Below, in pieces: positions 5,264 to 54,054 of a stretch of 64,000 bases of DNA. The notes below the pieces were generated by a model that saw nothing but the letters and a program-made list of their open reading frames with translations, did no database searches and had not been told where the DNA came from. The position numbers and the translations under genes are program-made. This stretch comes from Chloracidobacterium validum (lineage in GTDB: Bacteria > Acidobacteriota > Blastocatellia > Chloracidobacteriales > Chloracidobacteriaceae), in NCBI RefSeq assembly GCF_018304825.1, contig NZ_CP072648.1:2525501-2589500 (forward strand), read 5' to 3'. The first letter of the stretch is position 1. Every line of letters starts with the position of its first letter.

Positions 5264-6339
5264 ACCACGCTCCACTCCCACGCCCGACTGACAAACTCAC
5301 TGCTTTCCTCAGTGATCACTTTTCACCCGAACCCATTTCACTTGAGCCGCTTCTGGGCGATGCCTCAACCCGAATGTACTTCCGTATTCGCCAGGCAGAG
5401 GCAACCTACATTGCTGCGGTTTATGCCGAGCCGTTTGACGCCAAAGCCTGGGCTTACGTGGATGTCACGAACCTTTTTCAAGAAGCTGGCATTCCGGTTC
5501 CACAGGTTCTGGCCGTTGACGAGCGATGCGGCGTCGTTCTTCAGCAAGACATTGGTGACTGTCGTCTCCAGGATGCGCTCCTGACCGAGCCGGAACTCAC
5601 GCGCCAGGTGGATTATGACATCGCTTTGCGCTTGATCGTGGACATCCAGAAAACCACGCCCATCGCTCGGGCCAAGGATTCTATCGCGTGGCAGCAAGCC
5701 TTTGACGATGAAAAGCTGTTTTGGGAAATGAGCTACTTTTTCCGCAACTATGTCGAACGGTATCGGCAGTTGCCCCTCTCGGCAGAGCTGGAAGCGCTGA
5801 CGCTCGGCGAACTTTTTGCCCTGACCTATCGGCTGGCGCGGGTGCCGCGGGTGGTCTGTCACCGCGATTACCACGCGCGCAACCTCATGCGTCACGCGGG
5901 ACGACTCTGGGTCATTGACCACCAGGACGCCCGCTTGGGACCAGCGACCTATGATCTGGCCTCGCTCCTGGGCGATCCATACGCGGCGCTTGAGGACGAC
6001 GTCCAAGCGGCATTCAAAGAGCGCTTCTGGGAACTGCACAGCGCCGCTTTTGGCAACCAGTACTACGCTTCGCAAAAACAGTTTGAGCATGAATATCAGC
6101 TCATGCTGGTACAGCGCCTGCTCAAAGCGGTTGGAACCTATGCCTATCAGTTCGCCGTGCGGAGCAACCCAGTTTACCTGGGTTATATCCCAATCGCGCT
6201 ACGCACCACGGCCAAAGCCCTGGAGCGCATCGCCGACCTGCCACTGACGACGCGGCTCGTCCAGTTGGCGCTTGAGTGCGAAGCCAAGGTGGCCGAGCCG
6301 GCCTCGGTCGAGCTACCCACACCCGCTCTGGAGCTTTAG
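5260..6339 (+). CDS. Aminoglycoside-phosphotransferase-fold sugar kinase, AmgK-like
   Basis: Cytosolic kinase of the APH fold, 359 residues. The catalytic loop HRDYHARN (H201, D203, N208) and the metal-binding D220 in WVIDHQDAR are intact, as is the N-lobe loop LLGDASTRMYFR. The arrangement matches AmgK, which phosphorylates N-acetylmuramate/N-acetylglucosamine at C1 in cell-wall recycling. The usual partner nucleotidyltransferase MurU is not adjacent, so the substrate is uncertain. The start overlaps the stop of the PEGA gene by 4 bp, suggesting one operon with an envelope role. Confidence 0.75.
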   Translation: MNHAPLPRPTDKLTAFLSDHFSPEPISLEPLLGDASTRMYFRIRQAEATYIAAVYAEPFDAKAWAYVDVTNLFQEAGIPVPQVLAVDERCGVVLQQDIGDCRLQDALLTEPELTRQVDYDIALRLIVDIQKTTPIARAKDSIAWQQAFDDEKLFWEMSYFFRNYVERYRQLPLSAELEALTLGELFALTYRLARVPRVVCHRDYHARNLMRHAGRLWVIDHQDARLGPATYDLASLLGDPYAALEDDVQAAFKERFWELHSAAFGNQYYASQKQFEHEYQLMLVQRLLKAVGTYAYQFAVRSNPVYLGYIPIALRTTAKALERIADLPLTTRLVQLALECEAKVAEPASVELPTPALEL

Positions 6340-6399
6340 AGCGCCCAGTTGTTCAAGGATTGACTGTCCTTGCGTCAGGCGAGTGAAAGCTTGGCAAAC

Positions 6400-6425
6400 G
6401 GGGCTGGGGAGTATCCCCCAGCCCC
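6400..6425. terminator. GC-rich stem-loop between convergent genes
   Basis: A 10-bp perfect stem (6400-6409 pairs with 6416-6425; arm GGGGCTGGGG) has a 6-nt loop. It lies between the end of the AmgK-like gene and the end of the photosynthesis cluster. There is no U-run on either side, so it could be a bidirectional terminator or an mRNA 3'-end stabiliser. Confidence 0.55.
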
Positions 6426-6462
6426 GGCAGGTTCTCGCCCAAGCTTCAGTCAAGAAGGAGTT

Positions 6463-7032
6463 TCAGCGGCGAACTGTCTCGTCGGGTGTTGGAGTCGGTT
6501 CAGCCGGCACGGTTCCACGCGGTATGCCAGCCGTAATGGGAGCCGCATCGGTTTTCTGCTTCTCGAAGCGGCGAATGTACTCAACCAGATAGTTGATTTG
6601 CTGCAACGTCAACTTGTCTTTGTAAGCTGGCATGACCTTGCCCTTGCCGTTGACGATAGACGTTACCATGCCCGGCGACGAATTGTTGCGCTGCCAACCG
6701 GCATCTTGAAAATTGGTCGCATTGATGGCTTTGTTACCGCCTCCATTGGCCTGATGGCAGCCGGCACAAGCGGCGTAGTTGCGCGTCTGTAGCTCCGCCA
6801 GCATCATTTTGTAATGCGCAACTTCATCCGCCGGCGTGTCTTCGGGCAGCCCATCCGTCGAGCCTTCGTAGAGCACTTGCGCTTCGCGGAGGAAGTTTGG
6901 CGCGGCGCGCGAAGAAGCAATTGGCGACGCTCCCAAGCGTGGCTCACTGGCATTGCGCGCTCCAACAAAGCATCCCGTGGCCAACATAGCCACCAAACCC
7001 AACGTGGCGACTTTGTTTATCTTGTCCATCAT
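6463..7032 (-). CDS. Lipoprotein mono-haem cytochrome c, last gene of the photosynthesis cluster
   Basis: Periplasmic electron carrier anchored by a lipid. A type II signal peptide ends in LATGC (lipidated Cys21). One haem site CAGCH (C89, C92, H93) and a probable distal ligand Met134 (VMPAY) define a class I cytochrome c domain of about 60 residues. The C-terminus is short and polar. It is clearly paralogous to the cytochrome gene just upstream: both share the CFVG(A/S)R start of the mature protein and the 'F(Q/T)D.GWQ.NNS' and 'NGKG...MPAY' segments. Its position beside the reaction-centre genes suggests a donor to the oxidised special pair. That is an inference. Confidence 0.85.
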   Translation of the reverse strand: MMDKINKVATLGLVAMLATGCFVGARNASEPRLGASPIASSRAAPNFLREAQVLYEGSTDGLPEDTPADEVAHYKMMLAELQTRNYAACAGCHQANGGGNKAINATNFQDAGWQRNNSSPGMVTSIVNGKGKVMPAYKDKLTLQQINYLVEYIRRFEKQKTDAAPITAGIPRGTVPAEPTPTPDETVRR

Positions 7033-7130
7033 AACTTACTCCTCGATTCGGCCTCCGGGGCGTGACTCATATGCCACAGCTTCTTGTCCGAAGACAATTT
7101 TCCCAAGCGCCTTGATAGCGGGTTTCGGGG

Positions 7131-7787
7131 TTACTTGTTCTGGCGTTCAGCCACCATGCGCTCAACGTCGCTCAGGGTTGGCAAGCCATTACATTCCCTG
7201 CCCTTGAAAGCGCGCAGATACGTCACCAAGTAGCGGATCTGCTTTGGACTCAGTTGGTTGTAATAGGCCGGCATCGCGCCGCCACCATTGCCAATCCCCT
7301 TGCCATTGTAAATCGAGGAATAAATGCCACCATCCGAGTTGTTTTCTTGCCAGCCGGGATCGGTGAAGTTGGTTGAGCGTGGTACGTTCCCGCAGCCATT
7401 ATGACCATGGCAACCCACACAGTTGTTTTGAAAGAGCGCGCGTCCTTCACGATAAATCTCGATTGGATCGCGGTACATTTCGGCTTCATTCAGCTCAACC
7501 CGCGCCGGTGATCCCAGGGGATCATTACCGGCAACATCCTGTTCATTGACCTGCTGCAAGTTCAGTGGCGTCACGCGGTCACGCAACGCTGCCGCGTCGC
7601 GGGCGCTAGGGGTGTTCTGTGCAATGCTTTCACGCGCGATTTCTTCCGCCGTCTTTGAAGTTTGATTTTGCAGGGGCATGGCTGCTTTGGGATAGCGGGT
7701 TTCATTTGGGTCACGGGAGCCGACGAAACAACCGCCGACCAGGAGCGCCAGCGCGCAGCCCAGCACTAAAGTCTTCACGTTTTTCAT
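7131..7787 (-). CDS. Lipoprotein mono-haem cytochrome c, paralogue
   Basis: Membrane-anchored periplasmic cytochrome c of 218 residues. The lipobox is VGGC (Cys20), the haem motif CVGCH lies at 123-127, and Met172 (AMPAY) is the likely sixth ligand. The 80-residue linker between lipid anchor and haem domain is longer than in the downstream paralogue. The start ATG at 7787 was chosen over the upstream frame extension because it gives a proper signal peptide and has AGAGG just before it. It is transcribed with the ArsA-like gene, about 50 bp downstream of it. An electron-carrier role next to the type-I reaction centre is inferred from context. Confidence 0.85.
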   Translation of the reverse strand: MKNVKTLVLGCALALLVGGCFVGSRDPNETRYPKAAMPLQNQTSKTAEEIARESIAQNTPSARDAAALRDRVTPLNLQQVNEQDVAGNDPLGSPARVELNEAEMYRDPIEIYREGRALFQNNCVGCHGHNGCGNVPRSTNFTDPGWQENNSDGGIYSSIYNGKGIGNGGGAMPAYYNQLSPKQIRYLVTYLRAFKGRECNGLPTLSDVERMVAERQNK

Positions 7788-7807
7788 GCTCTTACCTCTC
7801 AGGGAGG

Positions 7808-7823
7808 GGCTGTCGGGACAGCC
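7808..7823 (-). other. Inverted repeat between arsA-like and cytochrome genes
   Basis: Perfect 7-bp arms GGCTGTC/GACAGCC separated by 2 nt. It can form a short hairpin in the intercistronic mRNA, and no U-run follows. It is one of a series of stem-loops separating genes of the photosynthesis cluster. Confidence 0.5.
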
Positions 7824-7836
7824 TGGCTCCACACAA

Positions 7837-9099
7837 TCAAGCACTGGCTGGGGAACGTCGCAGCCGTGTCAAACGGGGTGGTTCCGGCTCACGCGCGCGC
7901 TCGCGGAACGTCACGGTCAGAAGTTCGCCCGCCGCCGTGTAGCCAACCATGTCGGCATTTGACAAAATGCGTGGCAGCGAGACGCTTCGGGCAATCCGCC
8001 CAATGCACATGTAGAGGTCCATGCCAACGCGCTGGACTTCGATGTGTTCGTTCTCGGCAAGGAAGGGAATGCGCACGACAAACCGCCGAATATCCGGCGC
8101 ATCGGCGGTTTGCCGCTCCTCCACCCACATATTTTTCTTGCTATAGAGGACGCTTCCGATATCGGTTGCCCCAAAGGCCTTGGCGCCGACCTCACGGAGG
8201 GCCTCAACCCCCAGCGGTTCGCAAGGCTCAAGAAAGAGTTTGAAAATCGGAAGTGGCGCAAAAGCCGATTCGATGTCCTCCAGGTAGCGTCCGTGGAGCT
8301 TTGACCAGTAATCAAAGTAGCTACCGAGTTCAGCTCCGTGCAGCGCATCGCCAACCGGATAAATCTTGTTGACGACCACCGCATCAATCGTCAGCCCATA
8401 AATGTGGGTGAACGTGTAAGCTCGCTTGCTTTCGAGAATCGAAAGCTTTTCAGGGTTGATCACCAGACGTAGCGTGACCTGTTCTCCAGTGAGAAAGGCA
8501 CTCACCTGATTCATCGAATCCAGAAGTTGATTGACCTCGTTGAAAAACTCGGGGTCGGGACCCGATGACGAACCAAAGGGCTTCATCATCGAGGACATGC
8601 CTTGGTAAACGCGAAAGAGTTTCTTGCCGGTGCTCCCACCCACGATGAGTTCTGGGTACGCGAGCAGGCGCAGGGTGTTGCCGGTCGGCGACGTATCGAG
8701 AATGACCACGTCCCAGTTTCCGGAAAGCGCTTCCCGATGCAGCCGCACCAGCGAGAAGATTTCATCCAGGCCGGGCTGCGTTGAAAGCTCCGACGCCACG
8801 GAAGAGCGAATGCCCCGTTTTTCGTAGCTTTCAGACACAAACTTCTCGAAGTTACCCATATTGCGCTTGGCTTCGTAAAGCGTGTCTATTTCCAAACCAA
8901 ACAGATTATCGGCAATCCGCGTCGGCTCGGTCCGCGAGAGAGAGACCTGGAACACGTCCCCCAGCGAATGGGCTGGGTCACTTGAAATGACCAGGACTTT
9001 TTTTCCGCCCGCCGCCAAGGTCACGGCGGTCGCCGCCGAAACCGTTGTTTTGCCTGTCCCGCCTTTGCCGGAATAAATGATGACTCGTGTGCTCGTCAT
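7837..9099 (-). CDS. arsA: ArsA/Get3-type ATPase with C-terminal HSP20-like domain
   Basis: P-loop ATPase of 420 residues. The deviant Walker A GKGGTGKT (residues 11-18), the SSDPAHSLGD switch segment and the DTSPTGNTLRLL loop identify the ArsA/GET3 family. Only one ATPase half is present, unlike the tandem bacterial arsenite pump subunit. The last 80 residues (about 325-405, IPFLAENEHIEVQRVGMDLY onward) resemble the small heat-shock-like beta domain seen on ArsA homologues of cyanobacteria and green bacteria. No arsenite-resistance genes are nearby. Lying between fmoA and the cytochromes in one transcription unit, it is better viewed as a candidate targeting or assembly factor for membrane or photosynthetic proteins (inference). 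Confidence 0.85.
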   Translation of the reverse strand: MTSTRVIIYSGKGGTGKTTVSAATAVTLAAGGKKVLVISSDPAHSLGDVFQVSLSRTEPTRIADNLFGLEIDTLYEAKRNMGNFEKFVSESYEKRGIRSSVASELSTQPGLDEIFSLVRLHREALSGNWDVVILDTSPTGNTLRLLAYPELIVGGSTGKKLFRVYQGMSSMMKPFGSSSGPDPEFFNEVNQLLDSMNQVSAFLTGEQVTLRLVINPEKLSILESKRAYTFTHIYGLTIDAVVVNKIYPVGDALHGAELGSYFDYWSKLHGRYLEDIESAFAPLPIFKLFLEPCEPLGVEALREVGAKAFGATDIGSVLYSKKNMWVEERQTADAPDIRRFVVRIPFLAENEHIEVQRVGMDLYMCIGRIARSVSLPRILSNADMVGYTAAGELLTVTFRERAREPEPPRLTRLRRSPASA

Positions 9100-9109
9100 G
9101 ATGGCCCCG

Positions 9110-9138
9110 GCCAGTGTGCGCTATCGCCACACACTGGC
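9110..9138 (-). other. Stem-loop between fmoA and arsA-like gene
   Basis: A 9-bp perfect stem (9110-9118, arm GCCAGTGTG, with 9130-9138) has an 11-nt loop. It lies in the 137-bp gap just upstream of the ArsA start. Without a U-run it is more likely an mRNA 3'-end barrier protecting fmoA than a complete terminator. Confidence 0.55.
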
Positions 9139-9236
9139 ATCGAATTTTGAACGCTTTCGTCAACGCAATCCCACCGCCGCTTGGCGACAGTTGCGAGTTA
9201 GGTGCGGGCAAGCCAACTCACCATCTGAACCCCTCA

Positions 9237-10334
9237 CTACCCAAAGAAAATATCGAATGGTGAATAACTGCCTTTGCAAATGCCTTCGGCCCAGGCCTTG
9301 TAACGCCCGCCCGTGAAAATCCGGACGTTTTCAGCGGCGCGATCCCACTCGAAGCTGTTCGCAGTTTCGACGAACTTCCTCCCTTTCGGAATCGAAACCT
9401 TGAAGCGGATGCCAAGGTCGGCCGGCTCGGAGTTGACAGCGATGCCGTGATGCGCCAGTGGAACCAGGGGGTGATTCAGGATTTTTCGCTTGCCGCCCTC
9501 AATGGGCACCGTAAAGCCCGGTAACTCGACAAACAGCTTGACTTCGACACCCTGGACGCTGGCATTGAAGTTACCCTGGAGCCGTGCCACGCGCCCCCCC
9601 TGATTGACAGGCTTCCCAAGACCATCAATCGGGAACAGTTCGAGCCACCGGCTGATGGAGTCCACGATCCCCGTGCCGCCACCGGCGAACCGGAAGTCAA
9701 TGCGGGATTTTTCACCGCCTTCCACTTCCGAGAAGTAATACACATCTATGTTGTCAAGGCTTTGACCGGTTTGTTCCAGGGCGTTCCACAATGGCCCAAT
9801 CAACCACACATCCTTGATGTAATCGCCAAAGTTGGGTGAGTTGCGAAAGGCATCTTGCATTTCGAGCCAGGTATCGATGACCTCCTCGCTATCCAGCGGG
9901 ACTCGAATGGACAGGTCATGAAACAGGTTGCCACACAAGAGGCGCTGCTTGCGCGCGATGACGTTGTCGTCAATGGCCTTTGAGCGCCAATAACGCAGAC
10001 AATCCACTACACCCTCAAACTCAAAACGGTGCGAAAACTTTCCAACCGTAATCTTGCCATCGCCGGCCGCAACGCGGCGCGTCGGCGACTCGTTGGCAAT
10101 GTCGGACTCGCCTTCAACCCGGCCCAAAATGCCATCCACGATGGACTGCCCGAAGAAGGTGAGCCGGACCACGTCGTCTTCGATCTTTTTGGCTTCGAGC
10201 TTGAGTTCACCGTCAATCGGCAAAAGCGGGGAAGCAGACGGTACGTTCGAGATACGGGCTTCCGCGCGGAGCGTTCCCCAACCAGTGTCTTCGAGGTCAA
10301 GGTCATAGTTTGAGGTAGTGAGTTTGCTTGCCAT
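9237..10334 (-). CDS. fmoA: Fenna-Matthews-Olson bacteriochlorophyll a antenna protein
   Basis: Water-soluble trimeric antenna that passes excitation from the chlorosome baseplate to the reaction centre. The 365-residue length matches FMO proteins of green sulfur bacteria, and the hallmark start (DYDLDLEDTGWGTLRAEARI-like), the Ser/Gly-rich beta-sheet pattern and the His residues that can ligate BChl a (for example in FSHRFEFEG, NLFHDLSIR and LNHPLVPLAHHG) are visible. The start ATG at 10334 is preceded by GGAGA at good spacing, and a longer frame upstream has no such site. Outside Chlorobiota, FMO is known essentially only in Chloracidobacterium. It lies between pscB and the ArsA-like gene and is flanked by stem-loops, fitting high, separately tuned expression. 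Confidence 0.97.
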   Translation of the reverse strand: MASKLTTSNYDLDLEDTGWGTLRAEARISNVPSASPLLPIDGELKLEAKKIEDDVVRLTFFGQSIVDGILGRVEGESDIANESPTRRVAAGDGKITVGKFSHRFEFEGVVDCLRYWRSKAIDDNVIARKQRLLCGNLFHDLSIRVPLDSEEVIDTWLEMQDAFRNSPNFGDYIKDVWLIGPLWNALEQTGQSLDNIDVYYFSEVEGGEKSRIDFRFAGGGTGIVDSISRWLELFPIDGLGKPVNQGGRVARLQGNFNASVQGVEVKLFVELPGFTVPIEGGKRKILNHPLVPLAHHGIAVNSEPADLGIRFKVSIPKGRKFVETANSFEWDRAAENVRIFTGGRYKAWAEGICKGSYSPFDIFFG

Positions 10335-10489
10335 AACGGCTGTCTCCTGCAAGATAAGGAAAGTGACGGTTTGGGGTTCCCAAACGAGCCAGCCTGAACC
10401 CACGAAGTTCCGGGACGAAGCGCTGGCTAGAGTGCAGGGGACGCAGGGAGCGGAAGGCTTTTCTTTGACGGAGTTTCCTTCCGTCCGCG

Positions 10490-10515
10490 CCGCAGTAGTC
10501 CGAAAACTACTGCGG
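10490..10515 (-). other. Strong stem-loop between pscB and fmoA
   Basis: A 10-bp perfect stem (10490-10499, arm CCGCAGTAGT, with 10506-10515) has a 6-nt loop in the 245-bp gap upstream of fmoA. A smaller 6-bp hairpin (10467-10472 with 10480-10485) follows it in the direction of transcription. No U-run is present. It could be a processing or stability element that uncouples fmoA mRNA from pscAB. Confidence 0.6.
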
Positions 10516-10579
10516 CTTACTCCGGGGTTAAAACCTGTGTGAAAACATTATGGGGAGGTCCTCACACCATTAGTATACT

Positions 10580-11119
10580 TCAAAGCAGTGACCCAATTCG
10601 GGACAATTCGTTGCGCTCACGCCAGTATGGTTGATCAACCATCTCGATGTGCATGTAGTCTTCCATATACTGCGTGCGTGAAACACCGCCTTCCGTAAAA
10701 ACAACGGCATCGGTCGGACACGTTCCCGCGACAAAGCACAACGAGCAACTAATGCAACGCACCTGGTCAATCCAGTACGTCTCACCGCCATCCAGAACGG
10801 CTTCCACATCGCGTGGCAAAATGGCGTTGACCTTGGGCGGACACTCATCCGTACAAAAGCCACAGCCAATGCACAGTTCTTCGATAATGGTATAAATCTT
10901 CTTCTCACGCTTCTTTTTGGGTGCTGCCGCTTTCGGGCGAGAGAGCCGATTTGGCGGACCGGGGATGGGAGGGAGCGCAGCCTTAGCTGGAGCTTTGGCC
11001 GGTGCTTTGGCGGCCGCTTTGGCAGCGGCTTTCGCCGGAGCTTTGGCTGCTGCGCCACTTGTTGCTTCAGTTGTTTCTTTGGCCGCGTTCTCTTCGGCTG
11101 CCGCTTTCTCTTCTGCCAT
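10580..11119 (-). CDS. pscB: Reaction-centre iron-sulfur subunit PscB (FA/FB protein)
   Basis: Carries the terminal [4Fe-4S] clusters FA and FB that take electrons from FX on the PscA homodimer to ferredoxin. The 179-residue protein has an Ala/Lys/Pro-rich N-terminal extension (residues 1-75), as in green sulfur bacterial PscB, then two cluster motifs: CIGCGFCTDECP (Cys 83, 86, 89, 93) and CISCSLCFVAGTCP (Cys 122, 125, 128, 134). The second has five residues before the last Cys instead of the usual three. The start ATG at 11119 opens with the MAEEKAAAEE run; a longer frame exists upstream without a better ribosome site. It follows pscA in the same direction with a 183-bp gap that contains a stem-loop. 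Confidence 0.93.
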   Translation of the reverse strand: MAEEKAAAEENAAKETTEATSGAAAKAPAKAAAKAAAKAPAKAPAKAALPPIPGPPNRLSRPKAAAPKKKREKKIYTIIEELCIGCGFCTDECPPKVNAILPRDVEAVLDGGETYWIDQVRCISCSLCFVAGTCPTDAVVFTEGGVSRTQYMEDYMHIEMVDQPYWRERNELSRIGSLL

Positions 11120-11261
11120 GGTGACTTTGCCTTTCACACCAAAAGATTCACACCACAAGATGACGGATACTTTTTCAAGGCCCGTGTTGAAAAATGTCCA
11201 CAACCGTCACCTACGGCAATGTGAACTTTGTTACAGGATTCGGCACGAAGCCGGGAAAGCA

Positions 11262-11293
11262 CCGGTGGAGACGGGAGCGCCGTCATCCACCGG
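11262..11293 (-). other. Long bulged stem-loop just after pscA
   Basis: An 8-bp outer stem (11262-11269 with 11286-11293, arm CCGGTGGA) continues through a 1-nt bulge into a 5-bp inner stem (11270-11274 with 11280-11284) and a 5-nt loop. It sits about 10 bp past the pscA stop. No U-run follows, so a stability or processing role is more likely than full termination. Confidence 0.6.
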
Positions 11294-11302
11294 ATTGGTT
11301 GG

Positions 11303-13900
11303 CTAGCGATTCTGGAAGAACCCATCGGCAAAGTAGAGAAACACCAACACGAAGGTGCCGGTGTAGAAGAACACCGTTCCCCACAACTTCGCCGTCGCCA
11401 GATTTGAAACCGGGAAGCGCACTTCCTGAAGGGTTTTGATCCCTAACCGCTTGCCCATCAAGCGCACCCAGCGGCTCTGAATGTCACCGCCTTCGGCCCG
11501 TGAGCCACGATCCTTGAACCAGAGCGCAAAACTCACAAACCAGATGAGATGTCCGAGCAAGAGCATGGCCGTCAAGTGGTTGTCAGTCCAAATCCAGGTG
11601 GTTTCATTCCACATGTACAGGAACACCCCGCCCGTGTGGCTAATGTTGTGGGTCAGGTAGTAGGCCTCGTTGCCGCGCGCCATCATAGTCGCAATCCAGC
11701 CACCATCCAGATACCAGGCGATGGCTGAGAGTGGCTTGATGGAAAACAAGATACAGAACCATAACTGATCCTGAATCGAGACGCCGCACGTCCCGCCTTT
11801 GACCGGCCCAATGCACGGGAAATCCGGCGATTGCTTACGCCATTCAAAGTCCCGATACCACGGGCTTTGATAGTTGTGGAAGGCAATCCGTAGGAGTGGG
11901 ATGAAGCCAAACAGCCAGCCGCCAATCATCAACCAGAAGAAGATCGCGTCGTTGATTTCGCCATCCCGATGCTGATCGCGCAGGTTTGAGTAAAGCACAG
12001 CCGGCGTGCTGGCGAGGCGCTCATTCCACTCCAGCATGGCTGCGTGAGCTTTTTCGAGGTCTGGCCGGAATTTATCGAGGGCTTCTTGAGCTTTCTTCTT
12101 GTCGTCGTCCGTCTTGGCGTCATCCAGCTGGTTGAGCAAGCTCACGGCCTTGAGGTGCGCCGCAAGGTAGGTTTCGTCAGCCTTGCGGGAGGCTTCAAAG
12201 GTTTTTTGGTTCTGGAGGTACCAGATCCCCTTGTCCACCCAGAACAGCGGGTTGACTTTGCGCAGAAAATGCGTCCAGCTTCCCCACTGCACGGCATACA
12301 GCTTCGACTGGCCCCACTCTGGCTTGTAGTTGATTTCTTCAATGGTCGTGAAGCTGTAGGTCGGCGACGAACCAATGCCCAATTCTTCGTTCAGGATGCG
12401 GTCGCCGACTTGCAAGTTACGCGCCTTGACCAGCTTGGCCGTGCCGTCGGGGTTCGTGACCCAGTCACCACCGGCCGTTGGATCCCACGCATTCTTTGGA
12501 CGAAACACCCGATAGCCGACATTACCAGCCTCACCGTCCATCTGAATCGCGCGGTAGGAGCGGAACTGGTAAATACCGAAGTTGAGGTCAAGCTCTGAAC
12601 CGGTATTCCAGCAGATCATCCCATAGCCAAACACGACCGTCACGAAGCTGACAAACATGGTCGTGCCGACAATCTTGGTCTGCAAGTCGGGATTCTGGAA
12701 CCAGGTGATGAACTTCGAGCGGGCTTGTTTATACGCTCCGGAGATATTGAGCCCATGCAGATATTGACCACCGTGAAAGACCCCGGCTGCCACATAGATC
12801 AAGCCAACCTGGACGTGGTTGAACGTAATCATGTTGTGAATCATCCGACCGGGATTGACGATTTTCTTCCCGTAGATGATTACGTTCATGTCGTTGAGCA
12901 TCAGATATGACGGATGGTTGCGCAGCGCCAGGAAACCGACGATGGCCAGGGCAAAGCTGACATAACCAATCGCCGTCAGGTGAACATGAAACACCGCCTT
13001 GGTGTCTTCGAGGTGGGTGATGTTGACGCTGCGCGGCGGCCGATACCACCAGTAAGCGCCGAGCGCCACAAAGAGCACCCCCCACACGAAACACATCGTC
13101 GTTTCACCATTGATGGTGTTCATTGGGTGCATGACCTGCTGCAAGTACGGGTCATACCAGCCATATGGAAACTGCGCTTGCTCAATTGGCAGCATCCCAT
13201 TGGGGGTCATCACCTGGGCCGGTTGGAGTGGGACTGGCGGTTTGTCGAGAACAAACCACAACACCGCGCCCCAGATGAAGAACAGCAGCCCAATGTAAAT
13301 CGTGTGCGGACTGAGCGCGTCAGCGTAGGTGCGCCGCAGGATGCGCCACGGTGTATTGGCAAAGCTGCCCCATGGCAACCCAACCTTGTACCACGGCCCT
13401 TCCGGCGTGAACCACTTGATCTGGCACAGGCCCTTCAGGCCCGGCACGTACGGCAACAGCCAGAAAATTTCGCCAATCGTTGCGCCGCCGCGCGCGCCAT
13501 AGTAGTGCGCGGCGCCCGCATAAATGAGCCACAAACCCAGCCCGATGTGAAACGACCCCCAACCAAACAACCGAAAATCGGTCATGGTGAGGGGATATTG
13601 ACCAAAAAAGGGCAGGTGTTTGGTGCTGAACTCACCGATCAGCGGCAGCCACACCCGCTGAATTTGTTCGGTGTCATACGGATCGTAAATCCCCAGTGAA
13701 ATGAGACGTGGACGCAGTGTGATATTCACATAACCATCGTTCCACATCGTCATACTGGCGAAAAAATATGTCCCGATGAGGCATGCCAGCCCACCAATCA
13801 ACATCATGTGCGCGCCGAAAATGCGTTCCGGCGGCATGGGTAGTTCCAGTTTTTGGTACCACCGCTTCACCCCGTTCGCGTACGACGAAAAGCTAGCCAT
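11303..13900 (-). CDS. pscA: Homodimeric type-I photosynthetic reaction-centre core protein PscA
   Basis: Membrane core that binds the special pair, antenna BChl/Chl and cluster FX. The 865-residue protein has about eleven hydrophobic segments. The FX loop is intact: PCIGPVKGGTCGVSIQDQ, with Cys near 696 and 705, each monomer giving two Cys to one shared [4Fe-4S]. A large extramembrane loop (about residues 435-650), including a charged helical stretch near 560-630, makes it longer than the roughly 730-residue PscA of green sulfur bacteria. The ATG at 13900 follows GGGAG at good spacing. It is the first gene of the photosynthesis cluster. Only one core gene is seen, consistent with a homodimer. 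Confidence 0.97.
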   Translation of the reverse strand: MASFSSYANGVKRWYQKLELPMPPERIFGAHMMLIGGLACLIGTYFFASMTMWNDGYVNITLRPRLISLGIYDPYDTEQIQRVWLPLIGEFSTKHLPFFGQYPLTMTDFRLFGWGSFHIGLGLWLIYAGAAHYYGARGGATIGEIFWLLPYVPGLKGLCQIKWFTPEGPWYKVGLPWGSFANTPWRILRRTYADALSPHTIYIGLLFFIWGAVLWFVLDKPPVPLQPAQVMTPNGMLPIEQAQFPYGWYDPYLQQVMHPMNTINGETTMCFVWGVLFVALGAYWWYRPPRSVNITHLEDTKAVFHVHLTAIGYVSFALAIVGFLALRNHPSYLMLNDMNVIIYGKKIVNPGRMIHNMITFNHVQVGLIYVAAGVFHGGQYLHGLNISGAYKQARSKFITWFQNPDLQTKIVGTTMFVSFVTVVFGYGMICWNTGSELDLNFGIYQFRSYRAIQMDGEAGNVGYRVFRPKNAWDPTAGGDWVTNPDGTAKLVKARNLQVGDRILNEELGIGSSPTYSFTTIEEINYKPEWGQSKLYAVQWGSWTHFLRKVNPLFWVDKGIWYLQNQKTFEASRKADETYLAAHLKAVSLLNQLDDAKTDDDKKKAQEALDKFRPDLEKAHAAMLEWNERLASTPAVLYSNLRDQHRDGEINDAIFFWLMIGGWLFGFIPLLRIAFHNYQSPWYRDFEWRKQSPDFPCIGPVKGGTCGVSIQDQLWFCILFSIKPLSAIAWYLDGGWIATMMARGNEAYYLTHNISHTGGVFLYMWNETTWIWTDNHLTAMLLLGHLIWFVSFALWFKDRGSRAEGGDIQSRWVRLMGKRLGIKTLQEVRFPVSNLATAKLWGTVFFYTGTFVLVFLYFADGFFQNR

Positions 13901-14292
13901 AAGCAACTCCCTCGACAGAGGACTCTTTCACCAGCCGCACCAAAACCCTGGGCGGCATCGTCAGTAACCTGACTCACGGGGACGTTGAAGCGGGGACGGA
14001 AGGAAAGGGAAGGGCGCGAATCGCGCCAACCAGGGACTTGTGCCGTCGCCTAACTCAGCCAAGACTCAGTATCGAGGAATCCGTGCGGGGTATGCCAACA
14101 GCGACGGACCGACGCGCATGTCCCGTGATGTTTTCAACCTACTTTGGGGTAAAACCAAGGTCAAACATTACTTCAACGTCATGCTTTGGTCGGTGGGAGC
14201 CTTTGCCCCGTCCAGTTGGTTGGGCTGAGTGCCCGTGGTACAGTCCATCCCCAGAAGTTCCACCGTTAGAAAAGCGAGGGCTGAGTTTAACG
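13901..14292. promoter_or_regulatory. Divergent control region pscA / pdxT with a 15-bp dyad
   Basis: A 392-bp gap with no convincing gene. It holds the upstream region of the photosynthesis cluster (leftward) and of pdxT (rightward). A perfect dyad GGCGCGA-A-TCGCGCC lies at 14013-14027, about 113 bp before the pscA start, and is a candidate operator. A small inverted repeat GTCAG/CTGAC (13960-13964, 13969-13973) falls in the probable 5' leader. I could not identify clear -35/-10 boxes. Confidence 0.5.
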
Positions 14293-14898
14293 ATGACAAA
14301 TGGCCGGCGGCGCGTCGGGATACTGAGTTTTCAAGGCGACTTCGCGGCCCATGCCAGGGCGCTTCGGCGCGCCGGTGCAGAACCAAGCTTTGTCCGCCGG
14401 ATTGACGACCTGGCGCATCTAGATGGACTCATTCTCCCTGGCGGGGAGAGCACCACCATGCTGCGCTTCCTTCAGGCAGAGCCGTGGTTTGACGCTTTGC
14501 GGGAGTTTGCCGCATCCGAACGCCCACTGTTTGGAACCTGCGCTGGGGCGATCCTGCTTGCCCAGTCCGTTATCCATCCCGCCCAGACATCGCTTGGTCT
14601 CTTGGACATGACGATACGGCGCAACGGTTACGGACGGCAACTCGACAGCTTTACAGACACCGCCTGCATCACGGCGCTGGGCGAAGCGCCGCTCGAGCTG
14701 GTGTTTATTCGCGCTCCCATCATTGAATCGGTCGGGACTGAAGTCGAAGTGCTGGCTGAATGCGGTGGTTATCCGGTATGGGTTCGCCAAGGACGTGTCT
14801 TTGCGGCGACGTTTCATCCTGAAATGACCGATGATGCGCGTGTCCACCAGTTTGTCTTCGGGTCGGGGTTTGGCCGCGACGTGAACCGTTCGGCTTGA
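14293..14898 (+). CDS. pdxT: Pyridoxal 5'-phosphate synthase glutaminase subunit PdxT
   Basis: Class I glutaminase that releases ammonia from glutamine for the PdxS synthase in vitamin B6 biosynthesis. At 201 residues the size is normal. Motifs are VGILSFQGDFAAH at the N-terminus, the oxyanion strand LPGGEST, the nucleophile Cys83 in GTCAGAILLA, and the FHPEM motif giving the catalytic His and Glu. The start at 14293 matches the family N-terminus; an in-frame extension to 14038 reads through the intergenic region and is not credible. PdxS is not adjacent. The upstream ribosome site is weak. Confidence 0.92.
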   Translation: MTNGRRRVGILSFQGDFAAHARALRRAGAEPSFVRRIDDLAHLDGLILPGGESTTMLRFLQAEPWFDALREFAASERPLFGTCAGAILLAQSVIHPAQTSLGLLDMTIRRNGYGRQLDSFTDTACITALGEAPLELVFIRAPIIESVGTEVEVLAECGGYPVWVRQGRVFAATFHPEMTDDARVHQFVFGSGFGRDVNRSA

Positions 14899-14905
14899 GC
14901 CGAAA

Positions 14906-14937
14906 CGTCAGCCTGAAAAGCCGTCAGCCTGAAAAGC
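14906..14937. repeat. Two perfect tandem copies of a 16-bp unit
   Basis: The unit cgtcagcctgaaaagc occurs at 14906-14921 and 14922-14937, starting 8 bp after the pdxT stop codon. Confidence 0.95.
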
Positions 14938-14939
14938 CA

Positions 14940-14966
14940 AAGGGCGCACGAAATCGCGCGCCCCTT
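14940..14966 (+). terminator. Imperfect stem-loop after pdxT
   Basis: The arm AAGGGCGC (14940-14947) pairs with GCGCCCCTT (14958-14966) with one bulged C and a 10-nt loop. It lies between pdxT and the convergent tRNA gene and has no U-run. Confidence 0.35.
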
Positions 14967-14971
14967 GAAGA

Positions 14972-15054
<83 letters not shown>

Positions 15055-18121: not shown

Positions 18122-19453
18122 ATGGTGAATCAAAAACAACTCGCGCCAGAGACGCTGCTCGAAGGACGCTATCGCATTGTCAAGCGGATTGGTGGCGGCG
18201 GCATGGGCAGTGTGTATTTAGCCTATGATCAGAAATTTGGTCCAGCGAACGACAAGACCCGCCGCGCCGTCAAGGAAATGTTTGACGTTTTTACCGACCC
18301 CGCTCAACGGCAGAAGGCCATTGAAGACTTTCAGCGCGAAGGTCAACTGCTGGCTAGCCTCGAACACCCATCCATCCCGACGGTCTATGATTACTTTGTC
18401 AACGACGGTAAGTATTACCTCGTGATGAAGTACGTTCCTGGCGGCGACTTGGCTAAAAAGCTCAAAGAAAGTCCGACCGGCTACATTGATGAAAGAACGG
18501 TGACGGAATGGGCGATTCAAACCTGCGATGTGTTGGACTACATCCACAACCAGAATCCACCCGTCATTTACCGCGACCTCAAACCTGCCAACCTCATGTT
18601 GGATGACAGCCGGACGCCACCGCGGGTCATGCTGATTGATTTTGGGATTGCCCGCTTCGTCTCACCGACGCAAAAGGGCGTGACGGCAATCGGGACGATG
18701 GGGTACGCGCCACCAGAACTCTTTTCGGGTCAAGTCGAGCCACGGTCGGACCTCTATTCGCTCGGGGCCACGATGTTTCACTTGCTGACCGGGTCTGACC
18801 CACAAGACAATCCATTGCTCATCTTCGACTTTGACCGCTATCCGCGCCCGCGCGACATCAACCCCAAACTGAGCAAAGGCATTGAAACCATCGTCATCAA
18901 GGCTGTTGCGCACAAACCCCATGATCGCCCAGCTTCGGCGGCTGAAATGAAGCGCATGCTGGAAGAACACCTCCGGCGGCTTGACAGCCCACCGATGCCC
19001 AACCTCGACCTAGCCTTTTGTATCGCCTGTGGTGGGAGCATTGCACCGGATGACGCTTTCTGTCCGCACTGTGGCGCCGCTCAACCCAGTGCCGGTGGAC
19101 GGAGCGGCGCGACTGGGCGGACCATAGCTCGCTTGCAGGTCATTGATGCGCACGGCAAGACCACGGCAGCCTACGAGCTTGTCAAGGAAAGCCTGCTGCT
19201 GGGGCGGACAGACCCACACACGGGGAACTTTCCCGAAATTGACCTGACGCCACACGACTTTGAGACCAAGGTCTCACGTCGCCATGCACGATTATTTCAG
19301 GAAGGCGGCCGCTTCTTCATTGAGGATCTGTCAAGCGTCAACGGAACATTTCTCAATGGGAGTACCCGGCTGATACCGAAGACGCCGCACCCACTGCAAG
19401 ACGGCGACGAGCTTAAACTCGGTGAAACGCGCGTTCGCTTCACGGCTCGCTGA
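18122..19453 (+). CDS. Ser/Thr protein kinase with zinc ribbon and C-terminal FHA domain
   Basis: Hanks-type kinase, soluble, 443 residues. Kinase domain about 17-285: Gly loop GGGGMGSVY, ATP Lys51 (AVKEMF), catalytic loop YRDLKPANL (Asp153), DFGIAR, and activation segment with GTMGYAPPE. A zinc ribbon follows (CIACGG...CPHCG, about 297-318), then a linker and an FHA domain (about 340-440, with SRRHARL and SSVNGTFLN). There is no transmembrane segment, unlike many bacterial PknB kinases. The FHA is close in sequence to that of the upstream protein. It lies 80 bp after that gene and 54 bp before the phosphatase, so the three are probably one operon. Confidence 0.92.
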   Translation: MVNQKQLAPETLLEGRYRIVKRIGGGGMGSVYLAYDQKFGPANDKTRRAVKEMFDVFTDPAQRQKAIEDFQREGQLLASLEHPSIPTVYDYFVNDGKYYLVMKYVPGGDLAKKLKESPTGYIDERTVTEWAIQTCDVLDYIHNQNPPVIYRDLKPANLMLDDSRTPPRVMLIDFGIARFVSPTQKGVTAIGTMGYAPPELFSGQVEPRSDLYSLGATMFHLLTGSDPQDNPLLIFDFDRYPRPRDINPKLSKGIETIVIKAVAHKPHDRPASAAEMKRMLEEHLRRLDSPPMPNLDLAFCIACGGSIAPDDAFCPHCGAAQPSAGGRSGATGRTIARLQVIDAHGKTTAAYELVKESLLLGRTDPHTGNFPEIDLTPHDFETKVSRRHARLFQEGGRFFIEDLSSVNGTFLNGSTRLIPKTPHPLQDGDELKLGETRVRFTAR

Positions 19454-19507
19454 CGAATCCAGCGCGGCTTCACGGCAGCGCAGAGAGCACAATCCTGGCT
19501 AGGCTTC

Positions 19508-21232
19508 ATGATTTCACGCCACTTACCCCCGGCGATCCAGGTTCGCCCGCCATCGGGGGCTTCGTTTGAAGTCTTGCTGAAAGGCTTCCGGCTTACCATC
19601 GGTCGGTCGTCACGAAACGATGTCTGCTTGAACGACCCTTTCGTTTCGCGGCTGCACGCTGAGATTCGGCGGGATGGTGAGTGCTTTGTGCTTCATGACA
19701 GTGGCAGTGCCAACGGCACCTATCACAATGGGCGGCGGATTGAGTCCAGTACCGCGCTTCAGCTCGGCGACATCATTCGGGTTGGTGAAACGGAGCTTCA
19801 CGTCGCCGATGTGACGACTTATGCATCTGGCTCGCACATCTCATCGCCCGCATTTCGCTTTACGGAAGCCGGTCCGACCGCCCCAACGGAAATTCTTACG
19901 TCCCGGCATACGCTGCCCCGACGACCGGCAAGCGGATCAACCCCACGCCTGAACCAAGCGGAAACAGCGACCCTCACGCCCCAATCGCCAACGGCGCAGC
20001 TTGCCCGCCGCTCTCGTGATTGGCTGGGGTTGTTTAGCTCGGTTGTGGAAACCCTGCTGGTTGACCAATCGCTGGAGGAGACCCTCGACACCATTCTTGG
20101 CCTCACCTTTGAGGCGCTGGCCGCCGAGCGAGCCTATCTGCTGCTACGAGACACCCACGGGGCACTCCAGCCACAAGCGCACCGCGCTACCCAGTCGGCG
20201 GCCAACTGGGAAGTCACGCTACCGTGGTCAATCTACGAGTGCGTCATGCGAAACGGAGACCCCATACTGGTTCTGAATGCCCAGGCAGATGACCGTATGA
20301 GCGGCGAGACCTCGGCCGTTTCACTCATTGCCGCGCCGCTCATCGGGGGCGGAGCAGTGCTCGGCATGCTTTACTTGGATAGCCCGTTTGCGGTCGGCTG
20401 CTTCGACGAAGACGATCTCAACCTGCTGATGACAATTGCCCGCGTGGCCGCCATCAAGGTCGAGAACGCCAACTTGCTGGAGGCGCGCCTCGAGACCCGC
20501 CGCTTTGAAGAAGAACTCAAGGTCGCCAGTGAAATTCAACTGAGCTTGCACCCCGCCCGCCCGCCTCACCTGCCAGGCTACGACATCACCGGCTTGAGTT
20601 TTCCCTGCCGTGAAATCGGAGGGGACTACTATGACTTCATTCCGCGTGGCAATGGGAAGCTGCTCATTGCCGTTGGCGACGCTGCCGGCAAGGGCATGGG
20701 CGCGGCACTGATGATGTCCAGCGTCCATGCAGCGCTACGCGCTCAAGCCCAAACCGAACGCTCCCTGACCGACATCGTTGCCGCGGTGAACGACTATGTG
20801 GTTGAAAACTCGCCAGACAACAAGTTCCTCACCCTGTTTTGTGCCGAGCTTGATCCGGCGACGGGCGCGTTTTGCTACACGAGCGCCGGCCACGACCCGG
20901 CGCTACTGGTGCGGGCGGATGGAACCTACACCGAGCTGCCGGCCCAGAGCATTCCGGTCGGGATTGCATTGGGGTCCGCGCCGGGTGTCATCCAGGGATG
21001 CCTCGCGCCGGGCGACGTCCTCGTGATTTACACCGACGGCTTGACCGAGAGTGCAAGCGAACAAGGTGAAATCTTTGGCCTCACGCGACTTGCGCAAACC
21101 GTTGTCAAACACCGGGACTTGAACACCTCACGCCTGCGCGACCGCGTGGATGAAGCGGTAAGTCGGTTTGTCGGCCGCGCCCCAGCCACCGATGACATGA
21201 CCCTGGTGCTGGTTCGCCGCCTGCCGCGCTAA
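19508..21232 (+). CDS. FHA-GAF-PP2C (SpoIIE-type) phosphatase
   Basis: Three-domain signalling phosphatase of 574 residues. FHA domain about 10-105 (TIGRSSRNDVCL, VSRLHAEI, SANGTYHN). A GAF sensor domain, about 175-325, may bind a small ligand or chromophore. The C-terminal SpoIIE/RsbU-like PP2C domain, about 335-572, carries the metal-binding acids in GGDYYDFI, VGDAAGKGMGAAL and YTDGLTES, plus SAGHDPALL. Such proteins remove phosphate from Ser/Thr, often on anti-sigma-factor antagonists. Its place after the kinase suggests that the two act as opposing enzymes on FHA-binding targets. Confidence 0.92.
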   Translation: MISRHLPPAIQVRPPSGASFEVLLKGFRLTIGRSSRNDVCLNDPFVSRLHAEIRRDGECFVLHDSGSANGTYHNGRRIESSTALQLGDIIRVGETELHVADVTTYASGSHISSPAFRFTEAGPTAPTEILTSRHTLPRRPASGSTPRLNQAETATLTPQSPTAQLARRSRDWLGLFSSVVETLLVDQSLEETLDTILGLTFEALAAERAYLLLRDTHGALQPQAHRATQSAANWEVTLPWSIYECVMRNGDPILVLNAQADDRMSGETSAVSLIAAPLIGGGAVLGMLYLDSPFAVGCFDEDDLNLLMTIARVAAIKVENANLLEARLETRRFEEELKVASEIQLSLHPARPPHLPGYDITGLSFPCREIGGDYYDFIPRGNGKLLIAVGDAAGKGMGAALMMSSVHAALRAQAQTERSLTDIVAAVNDYVVENSPDNKFLTLFCAELDPATGAFCYTSAGHDPALLVRADGTYTELPAQSIPVGIALGSAPGVIQGCLAPGDVLVIYTDGLTESASEQGEIFGLTRLAQTVVKHRDLNTSRLRDRVDEAVSRFVGRAPATDDMTLVLVRRLPR

Positions 21233-37354: not shown

Positions 37355-38962
37355 TCAGCGAACGGATCGCACAACCGGCGACGTGGCCCTGAGCGCCGGT
37401 CCAACCACCTGACCGGTCGGCGCAACCACCCCGGAAGGTGGGGCGGCAAGCGTCCAGCGGCCGGTGATGTCGCGCCAGGCATTGATGCCGGAAAGGGCGC
37501 AGGCCGGCGTTCCCTGTCCCGGAAAAACGGTGTCCCCAACCAGCCAAAAGTTGGGCAGTCCGACATCGCGCGAACCAATTCCAAACAAGTTGCTGTTCCA
37601 GCGGTTGGTACGCAGCCCGCCGACCATCCCGCGGGCGCGTCCGGTGTAGTGAGCAAAGGTGACTGGCGTTCCCGGCAGCAGGCATTCAATCCCATCGCGG
37701 ACGTTTGGAAACACGCGCTCAACAGCCGTGAGTAGGCGTTCGACCACGGCGGCCCGCCGGGCCGCATAAGCTTCCGGCGTGGCTTCCCACCACGCATCAA
37801 CTTCCGTGTGCGTCGAGACATTGAGGGTGCGCCGACCGGGTGGCGCGCTGGCTCGGTCATCGGCCTCACTGAGACTCAAGAAGGCACTGTTGCCATCCTC
37901 GAAGCTTGCACCGTACTGCAACAGGACTTGCTGATTGAGCGGCGCATCGTCGGGAATGACTTCAGATTTGACGCCCAAATAAAGCGTAAACGCTCCCCAT
38001 CCCGTGCCGGCCTTCTTGAGCGGTCGCGCCAACGAACGCGAAAGGTCTGCCGCCACCAGAGACGGCAGATTCCAGATTGGCAGATTGGCCACGACGCGCG
38101 GCGTCTGAAGTGTCAGACCGCGGTCGGTTTCAAGCGTATAGCCGCCGCCGGGCTGCGGTCGGATGCAGGTCACGCGCTGCCGCCGCTTGAACACGCCACC
38201 AAGCGCCTGGAATGCCTCAACGTGCGCTTTGATGAAGGTTTTCATGCCACCCCGCGCGCGCCGAATGCCGTGGCGGTAAATATCCAAACCGGCAGCGCCG
38301 TTGAGAAAGGGCGCGCGGGCGGCGGTTTCCTGCGCCGTAATCAACAACAACCCATCCAGGAACGCCCGCAACGGCCCATGGTCGGCAAGCCGATACCGAC
38401 GCAAGACGCCTTCAACGGTCGAAAATAAGTTTGGCAGGACTTGCACAAAACCCGGCGACACCAACCGTAAATTGGCAACCACATCCCGCCAGTGACGCAG
38501 CGGAAGCGCCGGAAGCTTTGCCGTTGCCGCCCACATCACGTCGGCCGTTTGGTCAATCAACGTCCAAAAGGCACGCAAGCGATCCGCTTCATCGGGTGTC
38601 CGGGCAAAGCGGGCGACCCGCTCTTCTGCCCAGCGTGTCTGGTCATAATCAATGTGAACTGTGCGGTCAGGCAGGTGAACGGCCACGCGCTCGACCAGCG
38701 TACTCTCTGGCAGCGCCACACCCAACCGCCTAAAAACTTGTGTGTGAAGGCCGTCGGGATCAAGGCCCATCAGGACGGTCGCGCCCGCATCGAAGGAGTA
38801 CCCCTTGTGGAAAAAATACCCAGCACAGCCACCGGCTTTGTCATGGGCTTCCAACAGGAGCGTTCGGTAGCCGTCATGCTGTAACAAAACTGCCGCCGTC
38901 AAGCCGGCAACGCCGGCACCCACCACCACGACATCAAACACTGATTCAGCCACGGGACGCAT
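37355..38962 (-). CDS. crtD: CrtI-superfamily carotenoid 3,4-desaturase, CrtD-like
   Basis: FAD-dependent carotenoid oxidoreductase of 535 residues. The dinucleotide-binding start VVVVGAGVAGLTAAVLL, EAHDKAGGCAGYFFHKGYSF and GATVLMGLDPDGLHTQVFRRLGV resemble cyanobacterial CrtD/myxol-type desaturases, and the C-terminal FAD motif GDTVFPGQGTPACALSG is present. It would introduce a 3,4 double bond in a monocyclic carotenoid. Chloracidobacterium is known to make deoxyflexixanthin-type pigments, which need that step. A CrtO/CruO-type ketolase or CrtH-type isomerase is the main alternative. Stand-alone between convergent Uma2 and upstream miaA (38 bp away). Confidence 0.7.
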   Translation of the reverse strand: MRPVAESVFDVVVVGAGVAGLTAAVLLQHDGYRTLLLEAHDKAGGCAGYFFHKGYSFDAGATVLMGLDPDGLHTQVFRRLGVALPESTLVERVAVHLPDRTVHIDYDQTRWAEERVARFARTPDEADRLRAFWTLIDQTADVMWAATAKLPALPLRHWRDVVANLRLVSPGFVQVLPNLFSTVEGVLRRYRLADHGPLRAFLDGLLLITAQETAARAPFLNGAAGLDIYRHGIRRARGGMKTFIKAHVEAFQALGGVFKRRQRVTCIRPQPGGGYTLETDRGLTLQTPRVVANLPIWNLPSLVAADLSRSLARPLKKAGTGWGAFTLYLGVKSEVIPDDAPLNQQVLLQYGASFEDGNSAFLSLSEADDRASAPPGRRTLNVSTHTEVDAWWEATPEAYAARRAAVVERLLTAVERVFPNVRDGIECLLPGTPVTFAHYTGRARGMVGGLRTNRWNSNLFGIGSRDVGLPNFWLVGDTVFPGQGTPACALSGINAWRDITGRWTLAAPPSGVVAPTGQVVGPALRATSPVVRSVR

Positions 38963-53939: not shown

Positions 53940-54021
53940 AAATGACCAAACCCGCAGCGTGGCGCGTACCACCCCCCTGCCAGGCTTTGTTCCTTTCAAT
54001 CCAGAGACGGTGAGCAAAAGG

Positions 54022-54040
54022 TAAACTTTATAACAGTTTA
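54022..54040. promoter_or_regulatory. Dyad overlapping the hppA -10 box
   Basis: TAAACT (54022-54027) and AGTTTA (54035-54040) form inverted 6-bp arms around a 7-bp centre that covers the predicted -10 hexamer. This suggests repressor binding, but no factor is identified. Confidence 0.4.
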
Positions 54041-54054
54041 TCGGCACGCTTCAA
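54027..54054 (-). promoter_or_regulatory. Sigma70-type promoter for hppA
   Basis: On the minus strand TTGAAG (54054-54049), a 16-bp spacer and TATAAA (54032-54027). This would give a leader of about 80 nt before the hppA ATG. Confidence 0.5.

Follow-up and report, generated by a model that had tools for sequence, protein, structure and literature searches.

A Get3d-like ATPase gene in the photosystem cluster of Chloracidobacterium validum, its orthologs in Chlorobia and a possible role in photosystem biogenesis

The photosystem gene cluster of Chloracidobacterium validum contains a gene for a Get3-family ATPase, here called get3, which is a less noticed part of the cluster and whose product may help to build the photosystem. 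The cluster occupies positions 6463–13900 of the window, by which we mean the whole stretch of 64,000 nucleotides analysed (RefSeq contig NZ_CP072648.1, positions 2,525,501 to 2,589,500). It is practically certain that this is the known photosystem cluster of strain BV2-C, a hot-spring organism with a genome of 3,659,143 bases in two contigs, of which chromosome 1 has 2,659,040 bases (PMC12816986). Papers are cited by their PubMed Central numbers. The presence of reaction-centre and FMO genes in the genus Chloracidobacterium has already been published (PMC8245765). The cluster and its products are thus known and ordinary for the genus, and the novelty lies in the ortholog group of get3 and its gene context. 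Taken as a whole, the best explanation is a photosystem cluster with its own dedicated ATPase, to which we give a probability of roughly 60%. The six genes are the following.

Positions 11303–13900, minus strand: pscA, type I homodimeric reaction-centre core, 865 amino acids from ATG (phmmer match to 7vzr_A; PF00223).
Positions 10580–11119, minus strand: pscB, FA/FB subunit with 2×[4Fe-4S], 179 amino acids (7vzg_B, 6m32_B, Fer4 models).
Positions 9237–10334, minus strand: fmoA, FMO bacteriochlorophyll a antenna protein, 365 amino acids (PF02327; solved FMO sequences).
Positions 7837–9099, minus strand: get3, Get3/ArsA-family ATPase with a C-terminal HSP20-like (alpha-crystallin) domain, Get3d-like, 420 amino acids (PF02374 and PF17886; ortholog of one green sulfur bacterial Get3 paralog).
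Positions 7131–7787, minus strand: pscY, monoheme lipoprotein cytochrome c, 218 amino acids, by homology the donor next to P840 (7vzr_C).
Positions 6463–7032, minus strand: pscX, monoheme lipoprotein cytochrome c, 189 amino acids, by homology the donor to PscY (7vzg_c).

Judged from its sequence, the fourth gene encodes a single-domain Get3 ATPase of Get3d architecture and not an arsenite pump. The 420 residues hold one PF02374 stretch (242.7 bits) and a PF17886 domain (30.3 bits, cut-off 22.5), and the protein passes the GET3/ArsA/TRC40 model TIGR00345 (218.8 bits, cut-off 135) but falls far below the arsenical pump model TIGR04291 (97.4 bits, cut-off 650). All 18 orthologs described below carry the deviant Walker A, switch I and switch II patterns, and none of the 18 has the CxxC zinc motif. 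Among solved structures, sequence comparison puts algal ARSA1 (4.6e-43) and an archaeal Get3 (2.1e-38) first, with weaker matches to the Get3d proteins of Nostoc (1.2e-10) and Arabidopsis (1.7e-7). The predicted structure is likewise closest to an archaeal Get3, 3zq6 (Foldseek 1.7e-20; Z 24.4, root-mean-square deviation 4.6, 274 residues aligned), and the Nostoc Get3d structures align with it from residue 4 to residues 397–398, including the C-terminal domain, at deviations of 6.4–6.9 (for 8egk, residues 4–398, Z 19.1 and 6.9). It is very improbable that the protein is a true ArsA arsenite-pump motor, placed in the cluster by chance and useful in arsenic-rich hot springs. Membership of the Get3/ArsA superfamily through PF02374, the algal match that bears the name ARSA1 and the hot-spring origin of the host would all fit such a pump, but the single ATPase domain, the score of 97.4 against 650 and the missing CxxC motif do not, and the ortholog is retained across Chlorobia. 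The gaps of the cluster are also too short to hold a pump gene in any of the seven chloracidobacterial loci, the search having been confined to the cluster. The arsenite pump was therefore rejected on the model (TIGR04291) and on the motifs (no CxxC, one domain), and the name arsA given to the gene in a preliminary description of this DNA was dropped with it.

The ATPase belongs to an ortholog group that spans two phyla. Alignment A2 holds 18 sequences, seven chloracidobacterial and 11 from Chlorobia, from which a profile was built. Against the window ATPase, the seven score 755–930 bits and the 11 score 455–473 bits, with one copy per genome, and the other 61 of the 79 retained Get3-like sequences reach at most 238 bits. 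In the tree of Get3-like sequences, the 18 orthologs form one clade (support 100/100), and they are 50–52% identical across phyla. With the profile, the ortholog was detected in 93 of 98 Chlorobia genomes, four as fragments (420–484 bits), and FMO in 95 of the 98, 94 of them over the cut-off. Among 297 Acidobacteriota, it was found in the three Chloracidobacterium genomes (762–769 bits), and the best score in the other 294 was 305.5 bits. It was not found in 258 Bacteroidota outside the Chlorobia set (from a draw of 345), where the best E-value was 4.5e-83, near-full-length orthologs in the same search giving 8.4e-233 or lower. In both of these searches at most five candidates per genome were scored, and on the A2 profile near-full-length orthologs reach 740–860 bits, listed paralogs about 306 at best. 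A search of 396 Acidobacteriota genomes for FMO itself gave three with it, which belong to a single genus.

The gene context is constant within the chloracidobacteria. Seven chloracidobacterial loci were compared, namely the window, two more from the same genus (L163 and L164) and L012–L015, and the order pscA-pscB-fmoA-get3-pscY-pscX is kept in all seven, L013 ending inside pscY and L015 starting inside pscA. The record of L015 is labelled Actinomycetota; its photosystem cluster is chloracidobacterial and keeps the order of the others, though it is the most divergent copy seen, and the record is probably misbinned or mislabelled. Outside this group, the Chlorobia genome G490 carries fmoA, an open reading frame (ORF) of 97 amino acids and then the ortholog on the same strand. 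Since both G490 genes group with Chlorobia in the trees, the fmoA-get3 pair is not a recent acquisition from chloracidobacteria; as a single case it is suggestive, not conclusive. Local alignment of the window proteins with those of one Chlorobium genome gave 52.5% identity for Get3, 47.1% for PscB, 43.6% for PscA and 41.9% for FmoA. A Fer4_5 (membrane-type 4Fe-4S) protein lies directly behind the Chlorobia ortholog in L180–L183 and L205 (L183:3611-4219, L205:7565-8188), and C. validum has a relative of it at G000:C1:626094-626579 that is 49% identical.

The light and electron path follows from homology to published work: FMO passes chlorosome energy to the PscA homodimer, PscA drives electrons to the two terminal clusters of PscB, and lipid-anchored PscX, then PscY, re-reduce P840 as serial donors (PMC10968294, PMC9751088). 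In the mechanism that we propose, the Get3d-like ATPase would be a dedicated cytoplasmic biogenesis factor of this photosystem. As an ATP-switched dimer it would shield hydrophobic segments, with the single-helix PscU, PscV and PscW as candidate clients, and would hand them to the membrane or to PscA/FMO assembly; its synthesis would be coupled to that of FMO and the donor cytochromes, probably through a single message running fmoA-get3-pscY-pscX. A role dedicated to the photosystem seems quite likely. Targeting or assembly chaperoning, as the particular way in which the ATPase would work, is a possibility that we place a little under even odds. Equally tentative is the wider proposal that get3 founds a photosystem-specific group, a type I reaction-centre/FMO biogenesis ATPase as integral as FMO, common to Chlorobia and chloracidobacteria and, when whole proteins are compared, more alike between the two than PscA, PscB or FmoA.

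Several observations weigh against a dedicated role. The predicted model of the ATPase is of middling confidence (predicted local distance difference test 72.1, predicted template modelling score 0.67). To our knowledge all Chlorobia are phototrophs, so finding the ortholog in that class does not tell photosynthesis apart from ancestry; in Acidobacteriota the ortholog pattern is one evolutionary event. Ortholog and FMO do not always coincide: of the five Chlorobia in which the ortholog was not found, G464 and G488 have a full FMO, G459 and G474 have FMO scraps and in G484 no FMO was found, and conversely G461 (full ortholog) and G416 (fragment) gave no FMO and G492 pairs a full ortholog with an FMO scrap. 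Incompleteness of the drafts is likely to lie behind these mismatches. In the 11 Chlorobia loci, a survey of the ortholog's neighbours turned up none of the other five proteins of the cluster (in L171 an antisense ORF stood in for the ATPase in this survey), and the neighbours that were annotated (L184 and two genes of L183) include the housekeeping genes aat, an enoyl-reductase-like gene, isocitrate dehydrogenase and uvrD. Adjacency of fmoA and get3 outside the chloracidobacteria was seen in 1 of 98 Chlorobia genomes, positions being compared by eye. Taken alone, the C-terminal part of PscA reaches 50% identity across phyla, and when the window is compared with L015 the ATPase (81.3%) falls behind PscA (88.9%) and FmoA (93.4%); Get3 is therefore better conserved than the reaction centre only when whole proteins are compared across phyla. 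For the purified C. thermophilum reaction centre, the accessible part of PMC9751088 lists neither FMO nor the ATPase as a subunit, and for the ATPase this is a further point of the same kind. An assembly factor need not stay bound, so its absence from the purified reaction centre is compatible with the proposed role.

Some of these points would suit an ortholog group that was transferred horizontally between phyla and has a general role, for example in lipid, lipoprotein or stress handling, with no special tie to the reaction centre. The 11 Chlorobia loci without a cluster gene beside the ortholog favour such a role, as does the grouping of the other two C. validum Get3 paralogs, one of which has a very long branch, with paralogs from Chlorobia. 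We nevertheless consider it unlikely, given the unbroken place of the gene between fmoA and pscY in seven of seven loci, the fmoA-get3 arrangement in G490 and the failure to find the ortholog in the 258 other Bacteroidota and the 294 other Acidobacteriota searched.

The paralogs bear on a second alternative. The C. validum genome has three full-length Get3/ArsA matches, and the 11 compared Chlorobia genomes carry several further Get3 paralogs. The second C. validum paralog (G000:C1:296488-297402; L165:8219-9403) adjoins a (bacterio)chlorophyll synthase gene, which scores over the NCBIfam cut-off, and clusters with a Chlorobia set (support 98/94); a member of that set, L093 from Chlorobaculum (L167:7707-8921), adjoins csmC, the gene for chlorosome envelope protein C. 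That Get3 paralogs other than the cluster gene also adjoin photosynthesis genes counts in favour of the dedicated role as well. On the other side of the second paralog, a 416-residue protein without a Pfam match resembles, by eye over its first residues, one near csmC in L167. The third paralog (G000:C1:1508060-1508923; L166) is very diverged and falls with another Chlorobia set on a branch of 4.06, its grouping being unsure, and adjoins a cation-efflux-like gene. The cluster ATPase could be imagined as an ATP-gated hydrophobic carrier of (bacterio)chlorophyll or other cofactors, or as a protein that loads FMO and PscA with pigment. The neighbours of the second paralog and of its Chlorobaculum relative would agree with this, as would the hydrophobic chamber seen in Get3d structures (PMC10248533) and the position of the ortholog, both in chloracidobacteria and in G490, after the gene of a soluble pigment protein, fmoA. 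The nearest folds, however, belong to ArsA and to Get3 proteins whose task is the targeting of tail-anchored proteins. We also know of no Get3 protein that carries pigment, and we regard the pigment carrier as an improbable alternative to a dedicated biogenesis factor.

How the cluster is divided into messages also concerns the ATPase. The intergenic gaps in the window, from pscA to pscX, measure 183, 245, 137, 49 and 98 bp, and across the seven loci they range from 41 to 317 bp. Three regions stand out.

Positions 13901–14206, minus strand: region upstream of pscA, likely a leader/promoter, conserved among chloracidobacteria (127 invariant columns in six rows, without L015).
Positions 11120–11302, minus strand: pscA-pscB intergenic region with a conserved block (46 invariant columns in seven rows).
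Positions 10335–10579, minus strand: pscB-fmoA intergenic region with conserved TGCGTCCCCTGC and GCAGGAGAC (ribosome-binding-site-like) blocks (50 invariant columns in seven rows; alignment A3, six rows).

Only 5 columns are invariant before get3 and 4 before pscY (seven rows each), and 14 before pscX (six rows, without L013). Expressed against the window gaps, the invariant columns before pscA, pscB, fmoA, get3, pscY and pscX amount to about 42%, 25%, 20%, 4%, 8% and 14%, the basis being 300 bases before pscA and then the five gap lengths. Because so little is conserved before get3 and pscY compared with the regions before pscA, pscB and fmoA, the alignment suggests that fmoA-get3-pscY-pscX may share one message, with get3 and pscY, and less clearly pscX, lacking promoters of their own. 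The preliminary description had put all six genes in one unit, which agrees neither with this comparison nor with a review that gives two messages (PMC10968294). The published division, a pscAB-fmo operon and a separate pscX/pscY dicistron, is stated for C. thermophilum, where pscX and pscY lie directly downstream of the pscAB-fmo operon (PMC10968294), and would leave the ATPase in a unit of its own or one reached by read-through. The 14 invariant columns in six rows between pscY and pscX could be reconciled with it; the near absence of conservation before get3 or pscY, beside the conserved regions before pscB and fmoA, speaks against it, and for the window we think it rather doubtful.

Scans for regulatory signals gave nothing beyond chance. 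Between positions 6200 and 14500, no sigma-70-type promoter site was found against 3.4 expected, and the terminator-like sites of the same scan numbered 10 against 10.2 expected; with no sigma-70-type site found, promoter scans cannot settle the division into messages. Rfam gave no match within positions 6000–15000 up to an E-value of 0.1. The motif CGTCCCC before pscA and fmoA was considered as a regulon marker; the window has two occurrences of GCGTCCCC where 4.4 would be expected, and since this is below expectation the motif marks no regulon by its count. Only some rows of the alignment show a candidate hairpin (GGAAGCC/GGCTTCC) ahead of fmoA. Upstream of pscA, a divergent plus-strand ORF is listed from position 14038, its start being given as listed.

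All six collinear minus-strand ORFs of the preliminary description are present, and its identification of PscA, PscB and FmoA was borne out by profile and sequence searches. The 865 residues of PscA align with 7vzr_A at 2013 bits, and PF00223 is matched at 29.1 bits (cut-off 23.3); the listed ORF opens with TTG at 13906, and the MASFSS start of the solved chain corresponds to 13900. PscB, whose start was taken as the start codon closest to the aligned start, matches 7vzg_B (1.6e-47) and the green sulfur bacterial PscB 6m32_B (2.4e-20), and Fer4 dicluster models bear out its two [4Fe-4S] sites. FmoA reaches 288 bits with PF02327 (cut-off 25) and matches six solved FMO sequences (1.2e-79 to 4.8e-76). 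The two cytochromes described earlier are indeed there: PscY matches 7vzr_C (3.9e-137) and its translation shows the lipobox LVGGC and the haem motif CVGCH, and PscX matches 7vzg_c (1.3e-87) with LATGC and CAGCH. Each translation thus has one lipobox cysteine and one CxxCH, and a lipid anchor is predicted for both. The attribution of the DNA to Chloracidobacterium was confirmed as well, chloracidobacterial chains and loci being the closest sequence matches of PscA. In the trees, FmoA and the ATPase fall inside the chloracidobacterial group.

Other statements of the preliminary description needed revision. FMO and homodimeric type I reaction centres were said to be otherwise a green sulfur bacterial trait, which no longer holds: both a type I reaction centre and a remote fmoA homolog are known from a Chloroflexota phototroph (PMC10972752), and the type I centres of heliobacteria are homodimeric too (PMC10968294). 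The gene order was said to differ from that of green sulfur bacteria, where pscA and pscB are paired and fmoA is elsewhere. The separation of fmoA holds: neither fmoA nor a Get3 gene was found within the flanks of any of 76 Chlorobiota pscA loci, the flank length varying and several contigs being short. The pairing is no difference, for pscB stands beside pscA in 67 of the 76 loci as it does in the window (in the remaining nine, several at contig ends, PscB was not found by phmmer, nor on a second attempt with a Chlorobiota PscB), so the difference consists of the added fmoA, ATPase and cytochromes. Kinase/FHA and crtP-like genes, described as lying beside the cluster, are present in the window but at distances of 4–7 kb and about 47 kb, and thus outside the cluster unit. 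The former comprise, at positions 18122–21229, a kinase-FHA gene followed by an FHA-GAF-SpoIIE phosphatase-type gene; the latter, at 60806–62230, resembles plant-type phytoene desaturase (TIGR02731, 432.9 bits, below the cut-off of 569.4). The window further contains a CrtD-like gene at 37358–38962 (302.1 bits, cut-off 549.7), a proton-pumping pyrophosphatase gene at 51756–54047 (PF03030, 863 bits) and, at 57060–57782, a gene for a 241-residue protein with an N-terminal 2Fe-2S domain. Some chlorosome proteins share such an N-terminal 2Fe-2S layout.

The cluster may offer a defined system for a wider question. GET3B is reportedly linked to chloroplast biogenesis. Get3d is kept across many photosynthetic organisms with its job unexplained, and photosystem subunits have been suggested as its clients in chloroplasts (PMC10248533); the words Acidobacteri- and Chloracidobacterium do not occur in the main text of that paper. 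In a green sulfur bacterial genome, six ArsA homologs were interpreted in terms of arsenite export (PMC11269200), and ArsA is one of the proteins with a signature insertion in Chloroflexineae (PMC6180586). We found no paper on a Get3/ArsA gene in a reaction-centre cluster, most of the subscription literature, including the founding papers of 2007 and 2012, having been outside our reach. A Get3d-like gene fixed between antenna and donor genes, with a one-to-one counterpart in 11 Chlorobia, names a system in which the Get3d question can be asked. With several Get3 paralogs per Chlorobia genome, knowing the one that is paired with the reaction centre clarifies which to study, and if the proposed role is true, the link between Get3d and photosynthesis would gain a defined client set.

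Among known systems, the closest is the reaction centre of C. thermophilum (7vzg/7vzr; PMC9751088), whose PscA, PscB, PscX and PscY are orthologous to those of the window; the C. validum system is a species variant of it. There, PscX and PscY are Cabther_A2183 and A2184 and PscB is A2187 (PMC10968294, PMC9751088); the number A2185 would fit the ATPase gene, on which the accessible parts of these papers are silent. PscZ is Cabther_A1475, a number distant from those of this cluster (PMC9751088). Green sulfur bacteria (Chlorobia) have homologous PscA, PscB and FmoA, 42–47% identical to those of the window in one Chlorobium genome, but their donor cytochrome is PscC, unlike the chloracidobacterial PscX and PscY (PMC10968294). 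The ArsA arsenite-pump ATPase belongs to the same superfamily as the window ATPase, which lacks the doubled domain and fails the pump model. Get3d, which occurs in plants, cyanobacteria and green bacteria, has the Get3 fold with a C-terminal alpha-crystallin domain, a deviant Walker A, no CxxC and, in its green-bacterial members, intact switches (PMC10248533), and the window ATPase agrees with it in all these respects. The assignment to Get3d is by architecture and pairwise scores, the ATPase tree being without cyanobacterial and plant rows and the sequence being nearer to archaeal Get3. Compared with Get3d, the window ATPase forms a separate group, present only in Chlorobia and chloracidobacteria among the genomes searched, and in the chloracidobacteria its gene stands behind fmoA.

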